In this document: in pieces, positions 51,007 to 63,242 of the stretch | Numbering within the stretch: the first letter of the stretch is position 1 | How the letters are laid out: every line of letters starts with the position of its first letter | NCBI RefSeq assembly: GCF_026410255.1 | Contig: NZ_JAPMLL010000011.1 | Coordinates: 1 to 64,000, forward strand | Direction: 5' to 3' | DNA: 64,000 nucleotides | Origin: Xanthomarina sp. F1114 | Lineage (GTDB): Bacteria > Bacteroidota > Bacteroidia > Flavobacteriales > Flavobacteriaceae | Position numbers and translations under genes: made by a program | Notes under the pieces: generated by a model | Told to the model about the DNA's origin: nothing | The model's input: only the letters and a program-made list of their open reading frames with translations | Databases searched by the model: none

Positions 51007-51034
51007 TTGTGGGGATAATGTGGGGATATTTTTG
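51007..51034 (+). promoter_or_regulatory. Integrase promoter overlapped by an 11-bp direct repeat
   Basis: TTG (51007-51009), a 17-nt spacer and TATTTTTG (51027-51034) match the consensus exactly. TGTGGGGATAA (51008-51018) and TGTGGGGATAT (51019-51029) are tandem repeats that span from -33 to -7, one helical turn apart. They look like sites for a repressor or for the recombinase itself. Confidence 0.75.
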
Positions 51035-51072: not shown

Positions 51073-52371
51073 ATGGCGACTATTAATTACCTCGTAAAAG
51101 GCACGAAAGGATATTCCAATATTTTATTGCGATTCAAAAACGGCAGAAAGTTCGACTACACAGCTTCAACAGATTTAAAGGTCCTTCCAAATCATTGGAG
51201 TAAAGCAAAGCAAAAAGTTAAAAATATAAACGATGCTACATACAAAGACGAAGTAAACCTACATCTATTTGAACTCGAAAACTTTATTATAACGGAGTTT
51301 AATTCAGATAATTCTAAAGGAGTTTATATTGATAGGGATTGGCTAAAAACTAAAATTGCTAATCATTTCAATAGACCTGTAAATGATGATGCAATAGACC
51401 AGGTATTTTTTCTACCATTTGTAGAGCGATTTATTGAATTAGCACCCTCAAGAATTATTAAAGGTAAAAACAAGCCTGTAAGTTCTGGTACGATTACAAA
51501 ATACACAACTACCAAGAATAAGATTATAGAGTATGAAAAGAAGTTTAAAACAAAACTAAAATTCACAGATTTAAACCTAACGTTTTATGATAGGTTTGTC
51601 AACTATTTAACCCAAGACCAAAAAATCAATTTAGGAACCGTAGGTAATTATATAGGAACAATTAAAACAATGGCGAGAGACGCCAAACTTCAAGGCTTAC
51701 CGGTTCACGAGCATATCAATCACCCTAAATTCTTTGCGCCTAAAGTAAAAGCAGATAGTATTTATTTAAGAGACGAGCAAATCAATAAAATATACAATCA
51801 CGACTACAAAGGTGTTGAGCGTTTAGAAAATGCAAGGGACTTGTTTATTATAGGTTTAAGAACGGGTTTAAGAGTTTCAGACTTTTTAAGATTAAAAGCC
51901 ACTAATATAAAAGAAGGTTTTATTGAAATAGAAACACAAAAAACACAACAAGTCGTTATTATTCCAATGCACCCACAAGTAAAGGAAATATTAAAAAAGC
52001 ATAATGGTTTCCCAAGAAGAATATCAGACCAAAAATTCAATTTACATATTAAGGATGTCTGTGAAGAAGCAGGGTTTAAACAAAAAATAGAAGGCAGTAT
52101 GATAAACCCTAAAACCAAAAGAAAAGAAAAAGGAATTTACCCAATGTATAAGCTTGTAACCTCTCATATATGTCGTAGAAGCTTCGCTTCTAACTTATAT
52201 GGTAAACTGCCTAATATGGTTATAATGGCTATTACAGGTCATCAAACAGAAGCACAATTCTTAAAGTATATTAAAATAACGCCTAAAGAAAACGCAAAAA
52301 CACTTCAGGAGTTTTGGTTAAAACAAAACAAAAAAAATAAAGTAGAACAACTTAAAATGAAAAAGGTTTAA
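51073..52371 (+). CDS. Tyrosine site-specific recombinase (integrase)
   Basis: This 432-residue phage-type integrase has an N-terminal arm-binding domain (about 1-100), a SAM-like core-binding domain (about 110-215) and a catalytic domain (about 225-410). Active-site residues are visible: R267 in RTGLRVSDF, H365 and R368 in TSHICRRSFA, H390 in ITGHQT, and the nucleophile Y399 in FLKYIK. All are intact, so it should be active. It is the first gene inside the presumed left boundary and would integrate and, with a partner, excise the element. Its promoter carries a tandem repeat that suggests tight control. Confidence 0.95.
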   Translation: MATINYLVKGTKGYSNILLRFKNGRKFDYTASTDLKVLPNHWSKAKQKVKNINDATYKDEVNLHLFELENFIITEFNSDNSKGVYIDRDWLKTKIANHFNRPVNDDAIDQVFFLPFVERFIELAPSRIIKGKNKPVSSGTITKYTTTKNKIIEYEKKFKTKLKFTDLNLTFYDRFVNYLTQDQKINLGTVGNYIGTIKTMARDAKLQGLPVHEHINHPKFFAPKVKADSIYLRDEQINKIYNHDYKGVERLENARDLFIIGLRTGLRVSDFLRLKATNIKEGFIEIETQKTQQVVIIPMHPQVKEILKKHNGFPRRISDQKFNLHIKDVCEEAGFKQKIEGSMINPKTKRKEKGIYPMYKLVTSHICRRSFASNLYGKLPNMVIMAITGHQTEAQFLKYIKITPKENAKTLQEFWLKQNKKNKVEQLKMKKV

Positions 52372-52399: not shown

Positions 52400-53749
52400 A
52401 TGAGTGAAAATTATTATGGTTTTGAGAAGTTTTGCAAACTTATAGGGGATACTAACATTTTAAAAAAGCATTCAGTAATGGGTGTTGTAAGAATGTTACA
52501 GATTTGTATAGTTGAAATTAAAAAAGAGGTCCTTAAAGATTTATTAGAAATAGATGAAAAGAAAAAGGATGTCTATTTAGATTTAAAAATACATGAAATT
52601 AAAAGTCAAGACTATTTAAAAGAATATGGTTTAGGTAAAATTTACCACATCCTAAAAAACTTAAATATTTCGATAGAACAATTAATCACCTCCGATTATC
52701 CACATGAACTTAATAGTACTATTGATGTTGTGCTTTCTTATGACGAATATTATGATAATTATGATTATTTGAGAGGAACTCAAGAAAACTTACTTTATTA
52801 TTTTTTAAACTATTATGCTAACGAATTAATTTCATTTCTGGAATCTAAAAAGAGTAATTTTGATGATGAAAATATAAAAAAGGAAAGTTTAGTTTCAGAG
52901 GCGATTGCAGAAGCAATAATTCAAAGCTTTGAAGATTTAAAAGAGTTAAATTATAAAATGTCAAAAGAGATTGAAGCAATTTTTGGCAATGATATTTTTG
53001 CTGACCACACACCAATAGAGCTAAAATTTGAATATGAAATTGATTTTACAAAAGATAAAATAAAGGAACTTATTTCTGATTTATATAATCAATCAAGAGA
53101 AGATGATTATTTTTATTTTGATTGCCCTTCTGAAGTCTATATCAACCATTTTGAAACTAGAAAAGAACTTTATTTGATGGAAGTTCCTGAAGCAAATGAA
53201 TTTGAGTTTTTATTGTCAGAAGTGAAATATTTTTCAGAACCTTATGATAACAGAGTAATTATTGGTAAATCTGGATATAACTACAATGAATATGTAGATT
53301 ATAGCGATCGATATCGAATTACCCTAAAAAGAAAAATAGAGTTTTTATCTAAAAAGCTTGAACATTTTGGTTATATATTAATAACTAATGAAGAAACATC
53401 TCTAATAGATGAGAGCACGGGTAATTACAAAGGTTGGGGCACAGAAATTATTTTAGGAAAAACAGAAAATAAAAGTGAAGATATACCAGAGGTTGAATAT
53501 AAAAGCGAAAAGCAATTAACCACTAATCAAATTGTTTTACTTCTTCAAGAAACAGGTTTCTTTTCACATCCAAAAATTGAAAATGCATCCAAAGTAAGAC
53601 AGTCTGAACTGATAAGCAGAATATGTGGATTAAACTCTAAAAATATAAAAATTAAAATTCAAAACCTTGACAAAAGCCCAAAAGAATTAGGCAAAACCCA
53701 CCAAAAAGATATCGATAAAATAGATGATATTTTGAACAACTTGGAGTAA
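52400..53749 (+). CDS. Unknown element protein, 449 residues
   Basis: I do not recognise this protein. It is acidic, with no signal peptide or membrane segment. The N-terminal half is helical and tyrosine-rich (VVLSYDEYYDNYDYLRGTQ). The middle has coiled-coil potential (SFEDLKELNYKMSKEIEAI). The C-terminal 80 residues (TTNQIVLLLQETGFFSHPKI, then SKVRQSELISRICG) look like a small helical domain that recurs in Bacteroidetes mobile-element proteins. It lies 28 bp after the integrase on the same strand and before the HTH pair, so a role in regulating or carrying out transfer is likely but unproven. Confidence 0.7.
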   Translation: MSENYYGFEKFCKLIGDTNILKKHSVMGVVRMLQICIVEIKKEVLKDLLEIDEKKKDVYLDLKIHEIKSQDYLKEYGLGKIYHILKNLNISIEQLITSDYPHELNSTIDVVLSYDEYYDNYDYLRGTQENLLYYFLNYYANELISFLESKKSNFDDENIKKESLVSEAIAEAIIQSFEDLKELNYKMSKEIEAIFGNDIFADHTPIELKFEYEIDFTKDKIKELISDLYNQSREDDYFYFDCPSEVYINHFETRKELYLMEVPEANEFEFLLSEVKYFSEPYDNRVIIGKSGYNYNEYVDYSDRYRITLKRKIEFLSKKLEHFGYILITNEETSLIDESTGNYKGWGTEIILGKTENKSEDIPEVEYKSEKQLTTNQIVLLLQETGFFSHPKIENASKVRQSELISRICGLNSKNIKIKIQNLDKSPKELGKTHQKDIDKIDDILNNLE

Positions 53750-56871: not shown

Positions 56872-59031
56872 ATGACAAGCACAGCACAAAGAGCCGAATT
56901 ACAAAATCAAATATGGAAAATAGCCAACGATGTACGTGGTTCAGTAGATGGATGGGATTTCAAACACTTTGTGTTAGGAACTCTTTTTTACCGTTTTATT
57001 AGTGAGAATTTTACCGATTATATTGAAGCTGGTGATGAAAGTGTAAATTATGCTAACCTCCCAGACGATGTAATTACACCAGAAATAAAAGACGACGCCA
57101 TAAAAACCAAAGGGTATTTTATTTATCCAAGTCAACTTTTTGTAAATGTTGTAAAAAATGCAAACGATAACGATAATCTAAATACAGATTTAGCAGCTAT
57201 ATTTAATGCAATAGAAAGTTCTGCAAATGGGTATCCATCAGAAGAGGATATAAAAGGCCTATTTGCCGATTTTGATACCACAAGTAACCGACTAGGTAAT
57301 ACCGTTGAAAACAAAAATAGCAGATTAGCCGATGTTTTAAAAGGTGTGGCAGGCTTAAAACTAGACGGCGATTTTAAAGATAGCAAAATAGATTTTTTTG
57401 GTGACGCCTATGAATTTCTTATTCATAAATATGCGGCCAATGCAGGTAAGTCTGGTGGTGAATTTTTCACACCAACAAACGTATCGCAACTCATTGCTCA
57501 ATTAGCAATGCACAAGCAAGATAAAATCAATAAAATTTACGACCCTGCTGCAGGTTCTGGTTCGTTACTCTTACAAGCTAAAAAACACTTCGACAACCAT
57601 ATTATAGAAGAAGGTTTCTTTGGGCAAGAAATAAACCACACTACCTATAACTTGGCACGTATGAACATGTTTTTACATAACGTTAACTACGATAAGTTTC
57701 ATATTGTGTTGGGTGATACCTTAATGAACCCACAATTAGGAGACGATAAACCGTTTGATGCCATCGTGTCTAATCCACCATATTCTATAAAATGGAAAGG
57801 TAGTGCCGACCCTACGTTAATTAACGACGACCGTTTCGCTCCTGCAGGAGTGTTAGCGCCAAAATCTAAAGCTGATTTTGCGTTTGTATTACACTCATTA
57901 AGCTATTTATCAAGCAAAGGTAGAGCAGCTTTGGTGTGTTTCCCTGGTATCTTTTATCGTGGTGGCGCAGAACAGAAAATTAGAAAGTATTTGGTCGATA
58001 ATAACTATGTAGAAACCATTATCAATTTACCACCTAATTTATTTTATGGTACTACAATAGCGGTTACACTTTTAGTTTTATCTAAACATAAAACCGATAC
58101 AAAAACACAGTTTATAGATGCTACAGGCGAAGAGTTCTTTAAAAAAGAAACAAATAATAATGTATTGTATGATAATCATATTGAAAAGGTTATCCAACTA
58201 TTCGATACGAAAGAAGAAGTTGCACATGTAACCACAACTATAGACAATTCTAAAATAGCAGAAAAGAATTACAATCTTTCAGTAAGTACTTATGTTAAAG
58301 CAAAAAAAACAGAAAAAGACATTGATGTTAATGAGCTGAATAACAAAGTGTCAGATACTGTAAAAAATATAAATAAGCTACGTGAAAATATTGAGATATT
58401 AGTTAAAGATATAGACTCCGATAATAGCGCAAACTTTATGGAAAAGTTAGTTGATGGTGTTGATTTTGAATGGATGCCACTTGGAGATGTTACTAATTAT
58501 GAGCAGCCTGGTAATTATAGAGTTAGTTCAACTGATTATAGTGATAAATATAAGACCCCAGTTTTAACAGCAGGTAAAACTTTTATTCTTGGCTACACAG
58601 ATGAAACTAATGGTATTTACAAAGGTTCAGAAAATCCAGTAATCATATTTGATGATTTTACTACTGCTAATAAATGGGTTGATTTTGATTTTAAAGTGAA
58701 ATCATCTGCAATGAAAATGATAACTTCTAAAGATGATACTAAAATATCATTAAGGTATATTTACTTTTGGCTCAACACGCTACCAAGTGGTTTAGTGGAA
58801 GGTGACCATAAGAGACAGTGGATTAGTAAATATAGCCAAAAAAAAATCCCAATACCTTGCCCCAATAAACCAGAAAAATCATTAAATATTCAAAATAAAA
58901 TAGTTGATGCCTTAAATAAATTTACAGAGCTTTCAGCAGAGCTTTCAGCAGAGCTTTCAGCAAGGCAAATACAATATGAATATTATAGAAATAAACTGCT
59001 AACATTCTCAAAAGATGGTTTAGAAGTATAA
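56872..59031 (+). CDS. Type I DNA methyltransferase fused to a half-size specificity subunit (HsdM-HsdS)
   Basis: This 719-residue protein joins two subunits that are normally separate. Residues 1-490 are a complete HsdM, with N-terminal domain [23 protein letters not shown] motif [11 protein letters not shown] (near 223) and catalytic NPPY (near 302). From [20 protein letters not shown] (about 523) it continues as an HsdS with only one target-recognition domain and one conserved helix, which contains three ELSA repeats (686-697). A dimer would give a symmetrical, bipartite recognition site. The PrrC-like gene starts 4 bp downstream and hsdR follows. It methylates adenine in host DNA and guides HsdR. 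Confidence 0.88.
58927..58962 (+). repeat. Three perfect 12-bp repeats in the HsdS helix (ELSA x3)
   Basis: GAGCTTTCAGCA occurs three times in tandem without a change, coding for [12 protein letters not shown] in the conserved helix after the recognition domain. A change of one unit keeps the frame and lengthens or shortens the helix by four residues. In EcoR124 the analogous TAEL repeats (two or three copies) set the length of the spacer in the target site. Confidence 0.9.
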
Positions 59032-59035
59032 GTAT

Positions 59036-60148
59036 ATGAGGCAGTCATTAACAGAAATAGCACAATCACTAAAAGACAGTCAAAAAAAAGTACAGTTAAT
59101 CTACGCTTTTAATGGTACGGGTAAAACACGTTTATCACGGGAGTTTAAAAATTTAATATCCCCAAAAGAGGTTGATTCGGAAGAAGAGTATCAATCTAAA
59201 GTTTTATATTATAATGCTTTTACAGAAGATTTATTTTATTGGGATAATGATTTGGATAATGATTTAGATAGGAAATTAATAATACAGCCTAATGGATATA
59301 CAAATTGGGTGCTCCAAGACCAAGGTCAAGAACCAAATATAACAGCTCATTTCCAGCGTTATACAAATGATAAATTAACACCTAATTTTAATAGTGAATT
59401 TTCTGAAGTTCGTTTTTCTTTTGAGCGCGGTGATGATTCTGATTCAAATTATGTGAAAATTTCTAAAGGAGAAGAAAGTTGTTTTATATGGAGTATATTT
59501 TATAGCCTGTTAGAGCAAGCTATAAGTACTTTGAATATTTCGGAAGAAAATGAACGTGATACGGAACAATTTAATCATTTAGAGTATGTATTTATTGATG
59601 ATCCAGTGAGTTCATTAGATGATGATCATTTAATAGAACTTGCTGTAAATATTGCAGAATTAATAAAATCAAGTGATTCTGGCTTAAAGTTCATAATAAC
59701 AACACATAATCCTTTGTTTTATAACGTGCTATTTAATGAAATAGGGAATAAGACATGTTATATGTTAAATAAATTTGAAGATGGGTCATATAATATTCCT
59801 GTAAAACGAGGAGATTCCAATAAAAGTTTTTCATATCATATTCATTTAAAAAATACGATTGAAGATGCCATTGTAAATAATAGTATTCAGAAATATCATT
59901 TTACACTATTAAGAAACCTATATGAGAAAACTGCAAATTTTTTAGGCTATCCACGTTGGTCAGAATTATTACCTGATGATAAACAAACATACTATAATCG
60001 TGTAATTCAGTTTACAAGTCATTCAACGTTGTCAAACGAAGCAATACCAGAGCCTACAGAACCAGAGAAACAAACGGTAAGTTTTTTATTAAATCACCTC
60101 ACAACTAATTATAATTACTGGAAAGCAGAACAAAATGAAACAATATAA
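59036..60148 (+). CDS. PrrC-like anticodon nuclease (ABC ATPase with HEPN-type nuclease end)
   Basis: This 370-residue protein has an ABC-type ATPase core: Walker A FNGTGKT (25-31), a signature-like SKGEE (143-147), Walker B with D-loop [13 protein letters not shown] (186-198) and the switch histidine H224 in TTHNP. No long coiled coil is present, so it is not Rad50- or RloC-like in size. The C-terminal part carries R293, E297 and H329, with the same spacing (R, +4, +36) as the R320-E324-H356 catalytic triad of E. coli PrrC. PrrC cuts tRNA-Lys when phage disables the linked type I enzyme. The gene sits between hsdM/S and hsdR, as prrC does, and overlaps hsdR by 14 bp. Confidence 0.75.
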
Positions 60149-63100
60149 AACCATAGCAGAATCAAACAATTTTATTGTTTTAGATAAATACAAAAAGTTT
60201 TCAGAACTAAATGAAGCACCTGCAAGCTATCAAACAGAGGCAGATTTAGAAAAGGAATTAATTAAAGATTTAGTAAATCAAGGTTACGAATTTATCCCTC
60301 AAATAACCAATCAGGAGCGTATGTTGGATAATGTGCGTGTGCATTTGCAAGATCTTAATGATATGCAATTTACAGATAAAGAATGGAAACGTTTTGTAAT
60401 AGAATATTTAGATAAACCAAGTGATAACCTCGTCGATAAAACAAGGAAATTACACGATAATTATATCCACGATTTTGTGTTTGATGATGGGCATATCCAA
60501 AACATCTATCTGGTAGATAAAAAAAACATAGCTCGCAATAAAGTACAAGTCATTTCGCAATTCAAACAAAAAGGCACAGATGCAAACCGTTATGATGTTA
60601 CTATATTAGTAAATGGCTTACCATTAGTACAAATAGAATTAAAAAAGAGAGGTGTAGCTATTCGTGAGGCATTTAACCAAGTACATCGCTATACCAAAGA
60701 GAGCTTTAATACAGATAACTCACTATTTAAGTACCTACAGATGTTTATAATTTCCAATGGTACAGACAGTCGTTATTTTGCTAACACAGTACAACGTGAT
60801 AAAAATAGTTACGATTTTACTATGAATTGGGCAAAAGCGGACAATACACTTATCAAAGATTTAAAAGATTTCACAGCAACATTTTTTCAAAAACACACAT
60901 TATTAAATATACTACTTAACTATTCAGTTTTTGATGTAAGTGATACGCTTTTAATAATGAGACCTTATCAAATTGCTGCCACTGAACGCATGTTATGGAA
61001 AATTGCGAGTTCTTTTCAAGCAAAAAACTGGGCTACAACAGAAAGTGGTGGATATATATGGCATACTACCGGCTCTGGTAAAACGCTTACAAGTTTTAAA
61101 GCAGCAAGACTAGCAACCAAACTAGACTTTATTGATAAAGTGTTTTTTGTTGTAGATAGAAAAGACCTTGATTTTCAAACCATGAAAGAGTATCAACGTT
61201 TCTCACCAGATAGTGTGAATGGGTCTGATAGTACAGCGGGTTTAAAAAGAAATATTGAAAAGGATGATAATAAGATTATAGTCACAACCATTCAGAAACT
61301 AAATAACCTTATAAAAAGTGAAAGTGACTTGTCTATATATCAAAAACAAGTCGTGTTTATATTTGACGAAGCACATCGCTCTCAATTTGGTGAGGCACAA
61401 AAAAATCTACAAAAGAAATTTAAAAAGTATTATCAATTCGGGTTTACGGGTACGCCTATATTCCCTCAAAATGCTTTAGGTTCTGAAACTACAGCAAGTG
61501 TATTTGGTCGCGAATTACATTCCTATGTTATTACAGATGCTATTAGAGACGAGAAAGTATTAAAATTTAAGGTTGATTATAACGATGTAAGGCCGAAATT
61601 TAGAAAAATAGAAACAGAGATAGACGAAAAAAAATTAAGTGCAGCAGAAAATAAAAAAGCTTTACTTCATCCAACAAGAATAAAGGAAGTTTCTAAATAC
61701 ATCTTAAAACATTATAGGCAAAAAACACACCGTACACAAGGTGGTAATAGTGGTTTTAATGCCATGTTTGCAGTGAGCAGTGTTGATGCAGCTAAATGTT
61801 ATTACGAAGAATTAAACAAGCTTCAAAAGGGTAGTGATAAACCATTAAAAATAGCTACTATATTTTCTTTTGCAGCCAATGAAGAACAAAGTGCTATTGG
61901 TGAAATAGTAGATGAATCTTTTGAGCCAGCAGCAATGGATTTGAGCGCAAAAGAGTTTTTAACAGCAGCTATTGATGACTATAACAACATGTTTAAAACA
62001 AGTTATGGTGTTGATAGTAAAGAATTTCAGAATTATTATCGCGACCTAGCCAAACGCGTTAAGGCAAAAGAAGTAGATTTACTTATTGTGGTAGGTATGT
62101 TCTTAACAGGTTTTGATGCGCCAACATTAAATACATTGTTTGTAGATAAAAACTTGCGTTATCACGGTTTAATGCAAGCGTTTTCACGTACTAACCGTAT
62201 ATACAATGCTACAAAGACTTTTGGTAATATTGTAACCTTTAGAGATTTAGAACAAGCCACTATAGATTCAATTACACTTTTTGGGGATAGTAGTACAAGA
62301 AATGTAGTATTAGAGAAAAGCTATAAAGAATATCTAGAAGGGTTTACAGATATTGCAACAGGAAAAGCACGACGTGGTTATGTTGAGGTGGTAAAAGAAC
62401 TGAACGAAAAGTTTCCCAACCCAGATGAAATTGTAACAGAAAAAGATAAGAAGGCTTTTTCTAAACTTTTTGGTGAATATTTACGTGTAGAAAACATACT
62501 TCAAAACTACGATGAATTTGCCAATCTAAAAGAATTACAAAGTATAGACATAAACGACCCAGAAGCTGTTGAAGCATTTAAAGAAACACACTTTGTAACA
62601 GATGAAGATATAGCTGTTATGCAACAAATAGAGCTACTTGCCGAACGTACCATTCAGGATTATCGTTCTACTTATAATGATATTCGCGATTGGTTAAGAC
62701 GTGAGAAAGAAGGTAAAGGAGCAGAAGAATCGGACATCGATTGGGATGATGTAGTTTTTGAAGTCGATTTATTAAAATCGCAAGAAATAAATTTAGATTA
62801 TATACTTGAGTTAATTTTTGAGAATAATAAGAAATCTAAAAACAAGGAAGAGCTAGTAGAAGAAATAAGACGTGTAATTCGAGCAAGTATCGGTAATAGG
62901 GCAAAAGAAGGCTTAATAGTAGATTTTATTAATGATACAAATTTGGATGATATAAAAGAAAAAGCAACTATTATAGATGCGTTCTTTACTTATGCACAAG
63001 GAAAACAGAAAACAGAAGCTTCAGCATTAATAACAAATGAGAATTTAAATGAAGAAGCTGCAAAACGATATATCTTAACATCATTAAAGCGTGAATATGC

Positions 63101-63242
63101 TAGTGAAAATGGCACAGAACTGAATGGTATTTTACCTAAAATGAGTCCTTTAAACCCGCAATACCTAAAAATAAAGCAAAGTGTATTTCAAAAAATATCG
63201 GCTTTTATTGATAAGTATAAAGGTGTAGGAGGGCAATTATAA
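60135..63242 (+). CDS. hsdR: Type I restriction endonuclease, HsdR subunit
   Basis: This 1035-residue motor and nuclease subunit cuts unmodified DNA after translocation. The N-terminal PD-(D/E)xK nuclease has D in [10 protein letters not shown] and ExK in [10 protein letters not shown] (about 150-172). The superfamily 2 helicase motor follows, with Walker A TTGSGKT (near 312), DEAH in [10 protein letters not shown] (near 408), FTGTPIF and the later [14 protein letters not shown]. The C-terminal helical domain (from about 800) contacts HsdM. All motifs are intact. It overlaps the PrrC-like gene by 14 bp, so the two are translationally coupled. Confidence 0.95.

Follow-up and report, generated by a model that had tools for sequence, protein, structure and literature searches.

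The open reading frame at positions 59036–60148 (+ strand) of a 64,000-nucleotide stretch of the Xanthomarina sp. F1114 genome (contig NZ_JAPMLL010000011.1, positions 1 to 64,000; hereafter the window) very probably encodes a functional-looking orthologue of PrrC, a latent tRNA-Lys anticodon nuclease. The nuclease is one more PrrC; the less ordinary part of the locus is its fused half-specificity partner, in which HsdM and half an HsdS form a single protein.

PrrC and its restriction operon

The gene, prrC, has an ATG start and specifies 370 amino acids, with an ABC ATPase and a C-terminal HEPN-type anticodon nuclease as the predicted parts. This length lies within the range given for PrrC proteins (341–416 amino acids; PMC2610378). 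The PADLOC PrrC model matches residues 3–368 with 488.9 bits (E 2e-147); with this model, an E. coli PrrC obtains 490.5 bits. NCBIfam gave no PrrC match, either for the window protein or for E. coli PrrC. By tblastn, E. coli plasmid copies annotated as ‘anticodon nuclease’ reach at most 61.8% identity over 99% of the query; DNA-level matches are partial only, occurring in 21 of 5426 E. coli genomes, and none covers 80% of the query. A scan of species-representative genomes yielded 461 relatives among 495 candidate stretches. The genome loci used downstream are the best 80 of these 461 relatives, and together with the window and three E. coli loci they form an 84-row alignment, from which the own copies (L001 and L085) were dropped.

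All of the motif residues named in the preliminary description lie at their given positions in the translation of the open reading frame. They comprise the P-loop at residues 25–31 (FNGTGKT; Walker A, by sequence and alignment, spans residues 24–31, AFNGTGKT, at 59105–59128, + strand), FIDDP at 186–190 (Walker B/D-loop), the linchpin histidine H224 within ITTHNP, and the nuclease triad of R293 and E297 (59912–59926, + strand) with H329 (60020–60022, + strand). The triad spacing (0, +4, +36) equals that of R320, E324 and H356, the published catalytic triad of E. coli PrrC (PMC2610378), and the residues occupy the same alignment columns: R293, E297, H329, H224 and D260 correspond to positions 320, 324, 356, 251 and 287 of the 396-amino-acid E. 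coli protein (L082). Because the two proteins align end to end with the triad in these columns, the match goes far beyond chance.

These five residues are identical in 84 of 84 rows, as are N26, G29, K30, T31, D188, D189, P190 and D195 of the ABC head; residues 58–72 form a further, strongly conserved block, a candidate for the 15-residue PrrC box of the N-domain. Triad loss in close homologues, which had been set beforehand as a sign against the assignment, was not seen. Each of 116 relatives, down to approximately 30% identity, retains the arginine, glutamate and histidine (80 genome loci and 36 of 50 viral-contig loci, the last 14, L219–L232, being left out as they match part of the ATPase only). 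Aspartate aligns with D260 in 99 of the same 116, so that the catalytic residues are under tighter constraint than the recognition peptide. The alignment used to model the C-terminal domain (72 of 117 sequences) has six invariant columns, three of which are the triad.

Identity to E. coli PrrC is 65% over residues 1–237 (154/237) and 67% over residues 238–366 (87/129), and the idea that the N terminus is clearly unlike that of E. coli PrrC does not hold. Most of the difference there comes from 16 residues that E. coli PrrC has after window residue 17, with shorter gaps of eight residues in all around 45–53 and of three near 93.

Predicted folds are consistent with this assignment. Residues 3–262 of the window protein model as a Rad50-type ABC head: they match Rad50 and SMC heads, the best Rad50 entry being 3qku_B (Z 9.7, r.m.s.d. 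3.5, 186 residues aligned). The full-length model is of moderate confidence (pLDDT 70.5), with a low-confidence stretch at 325–335 that includes H329. The separate C-domain model (137 residues, pLDDT 74.9) is mostly a helical bundle, again with H329 beside a low-confidence stretch, and Foldseek gave no matches to it at E ≤ 0.001. Csm6 has a HEPN domain, and entry 7bxo holds a HEPN protein. In VIA-align, HEPN or Csm6 entries fill six of the seven best rows for the C domain with modest scores, in a range of Z values where, as the program warns, a match can reflect an arrangement that many helical bundles share. The best of them for this moderate-confidence model is 5yep_C (Z 8.2, r.m.s.d. 3.0, 94 residues aligned), a HEPN toxin–antitoxin entry (the HEPN label of SO_3166 is taken from an abstract). 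As PrrC has been assigned to HEPN in print (PMC3710099), such matches of the modelled domain are expected, and we regard them as supportive and not decisive. Searching the PDB by sequence found no PrrC chain.

The gene is tightly embedded among restriction genes. It starts 4 nucleotides after the stop codon of the hsdM–hsdS frame and overlaps by 14 nucleotides with hsdR (60135–63242, + strand; 1,035 amino acids), the product of which has an EcoR124-type C terminus (PF12008). This domain and the hsdM model TIGR00497 link the system to type IC, with the S part half-size and fused to M. The order hsdM/S–nuclease–hsdR was described correctly, except that a single fused frame of 719 amino acids stands in place of separate hsdM and hsdS genes. 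Of 83 loci, several of which are cut by contig ends, 82 have HsdS upstream of prrC and on its strand, 81 of them no more than 100 bp away; HsdR follows downstream, again on the prrC strand, in 80 loci, 65 of them with a distance of at most 100 bp. Fifteen of the 80 loci with a downstream hsdR, including L005, L019, L027, L031, L060, L061, L066, L067 and L080, have a prrC–hsdR gap of 179–1362 bp, into which an extra gene may fit. Among the loci fetched, the closest relatives of the cassette come from the flavobacteria Polaribacter, Algibacter and Winogradskyella. Family models, alignment, the invariant triad, gene linkage and predicted folds together bear out the earlier identification of the protein as an anticodon nuclease of the PrrC type, encoded in a type I operon; judged by its sequence, the protein is a straightforward PrrC orthologue in the usual PrrC place.

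Some relatives of the protein form a second C-terminal class, in which the recognition peptide is shorter by two or three alignment positions and the triad spacing is mostly +40 rather than +36. L084, L125, L126 and L127 and the viral contigs L192, L195, L198–L200 and L204 are of this class; they lack two residues of the peptide and have +40 spacing in the loci measured. Klebsiella plasmid copies match the C domain of this class at approximately 59%. The window PrrC does not belong to it. The PrrC of a Polaribacter locus (L018, 6001–7104) shares 86% identity with the window protein in residues 1–237 (204/237) and 41% in 238–366 (50/122); its recognition peptide differs, and its triad spacing is +40. 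This pattern resembles the exchange of a nuclease domain within a cassette that is otherwise close. Further away, diverged PrrC-like proteins (approximately 32–35% identical) lie directly before hsdM genes in L179, L180 and L181, and in the last two of these hsdM is split into two open reading frames.

The fused HsdM–HsdS partner

Upstream of prrC, positions 56872–59031 (+ strand) encode an HsdM fused in frame to half an HsdS: residues 1–516 are the M part, and residues 517–719 hold one target recognition domain (TRD) and a dimerisation helix. The M part aligns with the 516-amino-acid HsdM of the Polaribacter locus L018 at 85.7% identity, and directly after it begins a match (69%) to residues 5–202 of the 381-residue, two-TRD HsdS of L048. 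Pfam Methylase_S falls below threshold on the half S, and the assignment comes instead from the PADLOC specificity models (E 1.5e-52, residues 519–716) together with these alignments with HsdS proteins. The S helix contains three perfect 12-bp repeats (58927–58962, + strand) encoding Glu-Leu-Ser-Ala (ELSA), the counterpart of the TAEL repeats that set spacer length in type IC HsdS (PMC3874165).

Published work offers two precedents for an enzyme of this kind. Truncated type IC HsdS proteins form dimers that recognise interrupted palindromes (PMC3874165). In the Staphylococcus aureus CC398-1 system, a fusion of M to half S made by engineering is active with HsdR in both restriction and modification (PMC6158711). 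We infer that the M-half-S protein of the window forms a functional homodimeric enzyme. On balance we lean slightly towards the view that this PrrC guards a natural type IC-like enzyme, in which the specificity subunit would be a homodimer of HsdM-fused, one-TRD halves with an interrupted palindrome as its predicted target.

Fusions of this type are rare, as none of the 79 loci with an HsdM in the initial set carries one. A search for the fusion junction matched 19 of 395 genomes of the phylum, and the 12 regions fetched from these matches contained one further fusion that is followed by PrrC and HsdR (L171, 1749–3893). It comes from another bacterial family, is 714 amino acids long and is 80% identical to the window fusion in M and 36% in S. 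The finding of this second fusion of the same kind weakens the reading of the fused frame as a sequencing error. Apparent M-half-S fusions that belong to a more distant kind of type I system also occur in L178, in which there is no PrrC within the 9 kb fetched, and in L238; in L240, M is fused to an apparent two-TRD S.

If the homodimer reading is true then, together with L171, it would mean that an (M-half-S)2R2 core is enough to silence PrrC and that no two-TRD HsdS is required. The mechanism by which PrrC is restrained could then be studied in a simpler complex, and a PrrC homologue with a two-gene enzyme (M-half-S and R) could ease structural work and reconstitution. The window fusion is the natural counterpart of an enzyme that we met in the open-access literature only as an engineered construct (PMC6158711), and we found no description of a natural M-half-S fusion beside PrrC in the open-access literature searched.

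Target tRNA, mechanism and alternative readings

Homology, motifs, gene linkage, a modelled ABC head, an intact frame and host genes for the target tRNA are established here; latency, trigger and cleavage we infer by analogy with E. coli. In the mechanism that we propose, the N-terminal two thirds of PrrC would act as a Rad50/SMC-type ABC NTPase head and the C-terminal third as a HEPN-type RNase with R293, E297 and H329 as its catalytic residues. As in E. coli, the protein may bind the restriction complex of the adjacent genes and be silenced in this bound state. A phage factor that disturbs this complex would then set off an NTP-driven rearrangement that exposes the nuclease, and the freed PrrC would cut tRNA-Lys(UUU) 5' of the wobble base and bring translation to a stop. 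The same analogy supports the suggested role of PrrC as a latent back-up defence of its type I (IC-like) operon. Coupling to the fused enzyme in particular is assumed, because half the HsdS is fused to HsdM here, unlike in the E. coli loci.

The preliminary description had raised the possibility that the protein is a diverged subtype directed at a different tRNA, a suggestion that finds no support in a protein 62% identical to E. coli PrrC. In E. coli PrrC, the peptide 284–294 binds the tRNA-Lys anticodon stem-loop and Asp287 is thought to contact the wobble base (PMC3014915). The counterpart in the window, residues 257–267 (59804–59836, + strand), is identical at 10 of 11 positions and keeps the aspartate as D260. 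A subtype that cuts some other tRNA would fit a review statement that recognition sequences vary among PrrC proteins (PMC3014915), as well as the one exception in the peptide, position 258, which is arginine here and tyrosine in E. coli; that column, however, varies widely in the family. Furthermore, a PrrC with 35% identity to the E. coli protein was shown to act on tRNA-Lys (PMC11555353), and the host genome has at least two tRNA-Lys genes, both UUU with the loop CTTTTAA (30 loci scanned of 35 tRNA matches). Given the near-identical peptide, the activity of that distant PrrC and these host genes, tRNA-Lys is the expected substrate, and a different target seems improbable.

Two further readings would take the protein out of the PrrC system altogether or deprive it of its activity, and both appear extremely unlikely. 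An RloC-type or other ABC–HEPN nuclease without a tie to restriction would account for the above-cut-off match to Pfam AAA_13 (E 3.8e-14), and RloC has the same combination of an ABC ATPase with a C-terminal Arg-x3-Glu ... His triad that it has in common with PrrC (PMC2610378). At 370 amino acids, however, the window protein is approximately half the size of RloC proteins (658–897 amino acids; PMC2610378). It has no CxxC and no zinc-hook coiled coil, its gene is linked to restriction genes inside an hsd operon, and its tRNA-binding peptide resembles that of E. coli PrrC; on size and the missing zinc hook, we reject RloC and a generic AAA_13 ATPase alike. The half-size HsdS partner could instead point to a decayed PrrC whose only remaining role is structural, as a passenger in the restriction complex. 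Against such decay stand the intact frame with its invariant residues, the overlap of prrC with hsdR, and the retention of the same arrangement, with a different TRD, in another family (L171).

A putative integrative element, and comparison with known systems

The restriction cassette likely resides on an integrative element of approximately 18.8 kb. A 19-bp att-like direct repeat has its left copy at 51011–51029 (+ strand) and its right copy outside the window, at contig positions 69803–69821; these are the only two copies in the host genome at up to two mismatches, and none was expected by shuffling of a 20-kb stretch. A gene for a tyrosine integrase (51073–52371, + strand) of the element that apparently carries the cassette lies just inside the left repeat; at the other end, a tRNA-Ser gene is located past the right repeat. 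Between the repeats are encoded this integrase, HTH proteins, a BT4734/DUF3987 protein, the restriction cassette and an Mrr-like endonuclease. Also inside the putative element is an open reading frame of 449 amino acids (52400–53749) with no Pfam match above the cut-off and no PADLOC match. Searches of seven genomes of the same genus (one of them 75% complete) gave no PrrC at E ≤ 0.001, and 23 of the 395 genomes sampled from the phylum, the host genome included, have a relative at E ≤ 1e-20.

The nearest known system is E. coli PrrC with EcoprrI (prrABCD, type IC), with which the window has in common full-length homology (62% identity), the ABC head, the triad, the tRNA-Lys peptide and the position of prrC between the S and R genes, with a short overlap with hsdR. 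The window protein differs in lacking the 16-residue N-terminal stretch and some shorter ones, and whereas EcoprrI has a separate M and a two-TRD S, the partner here is an HsdM-half-HsdS fusion. That partner resembles the truncated type IC HsdS proteins EcoR124I delta-50, EcoDXXI delta-C and NgoAV, in which one TRD is likewise combined with one dimerisation helix and four-residue repeats (PMC3874165), and also the engineered M-half-S of CC398-1, in which half S is likewise fused to HsdM (PMC6158711). Unlike these truncated or engineered proteins, the window fusion is natural and has a PrrC encoded in the same operon.
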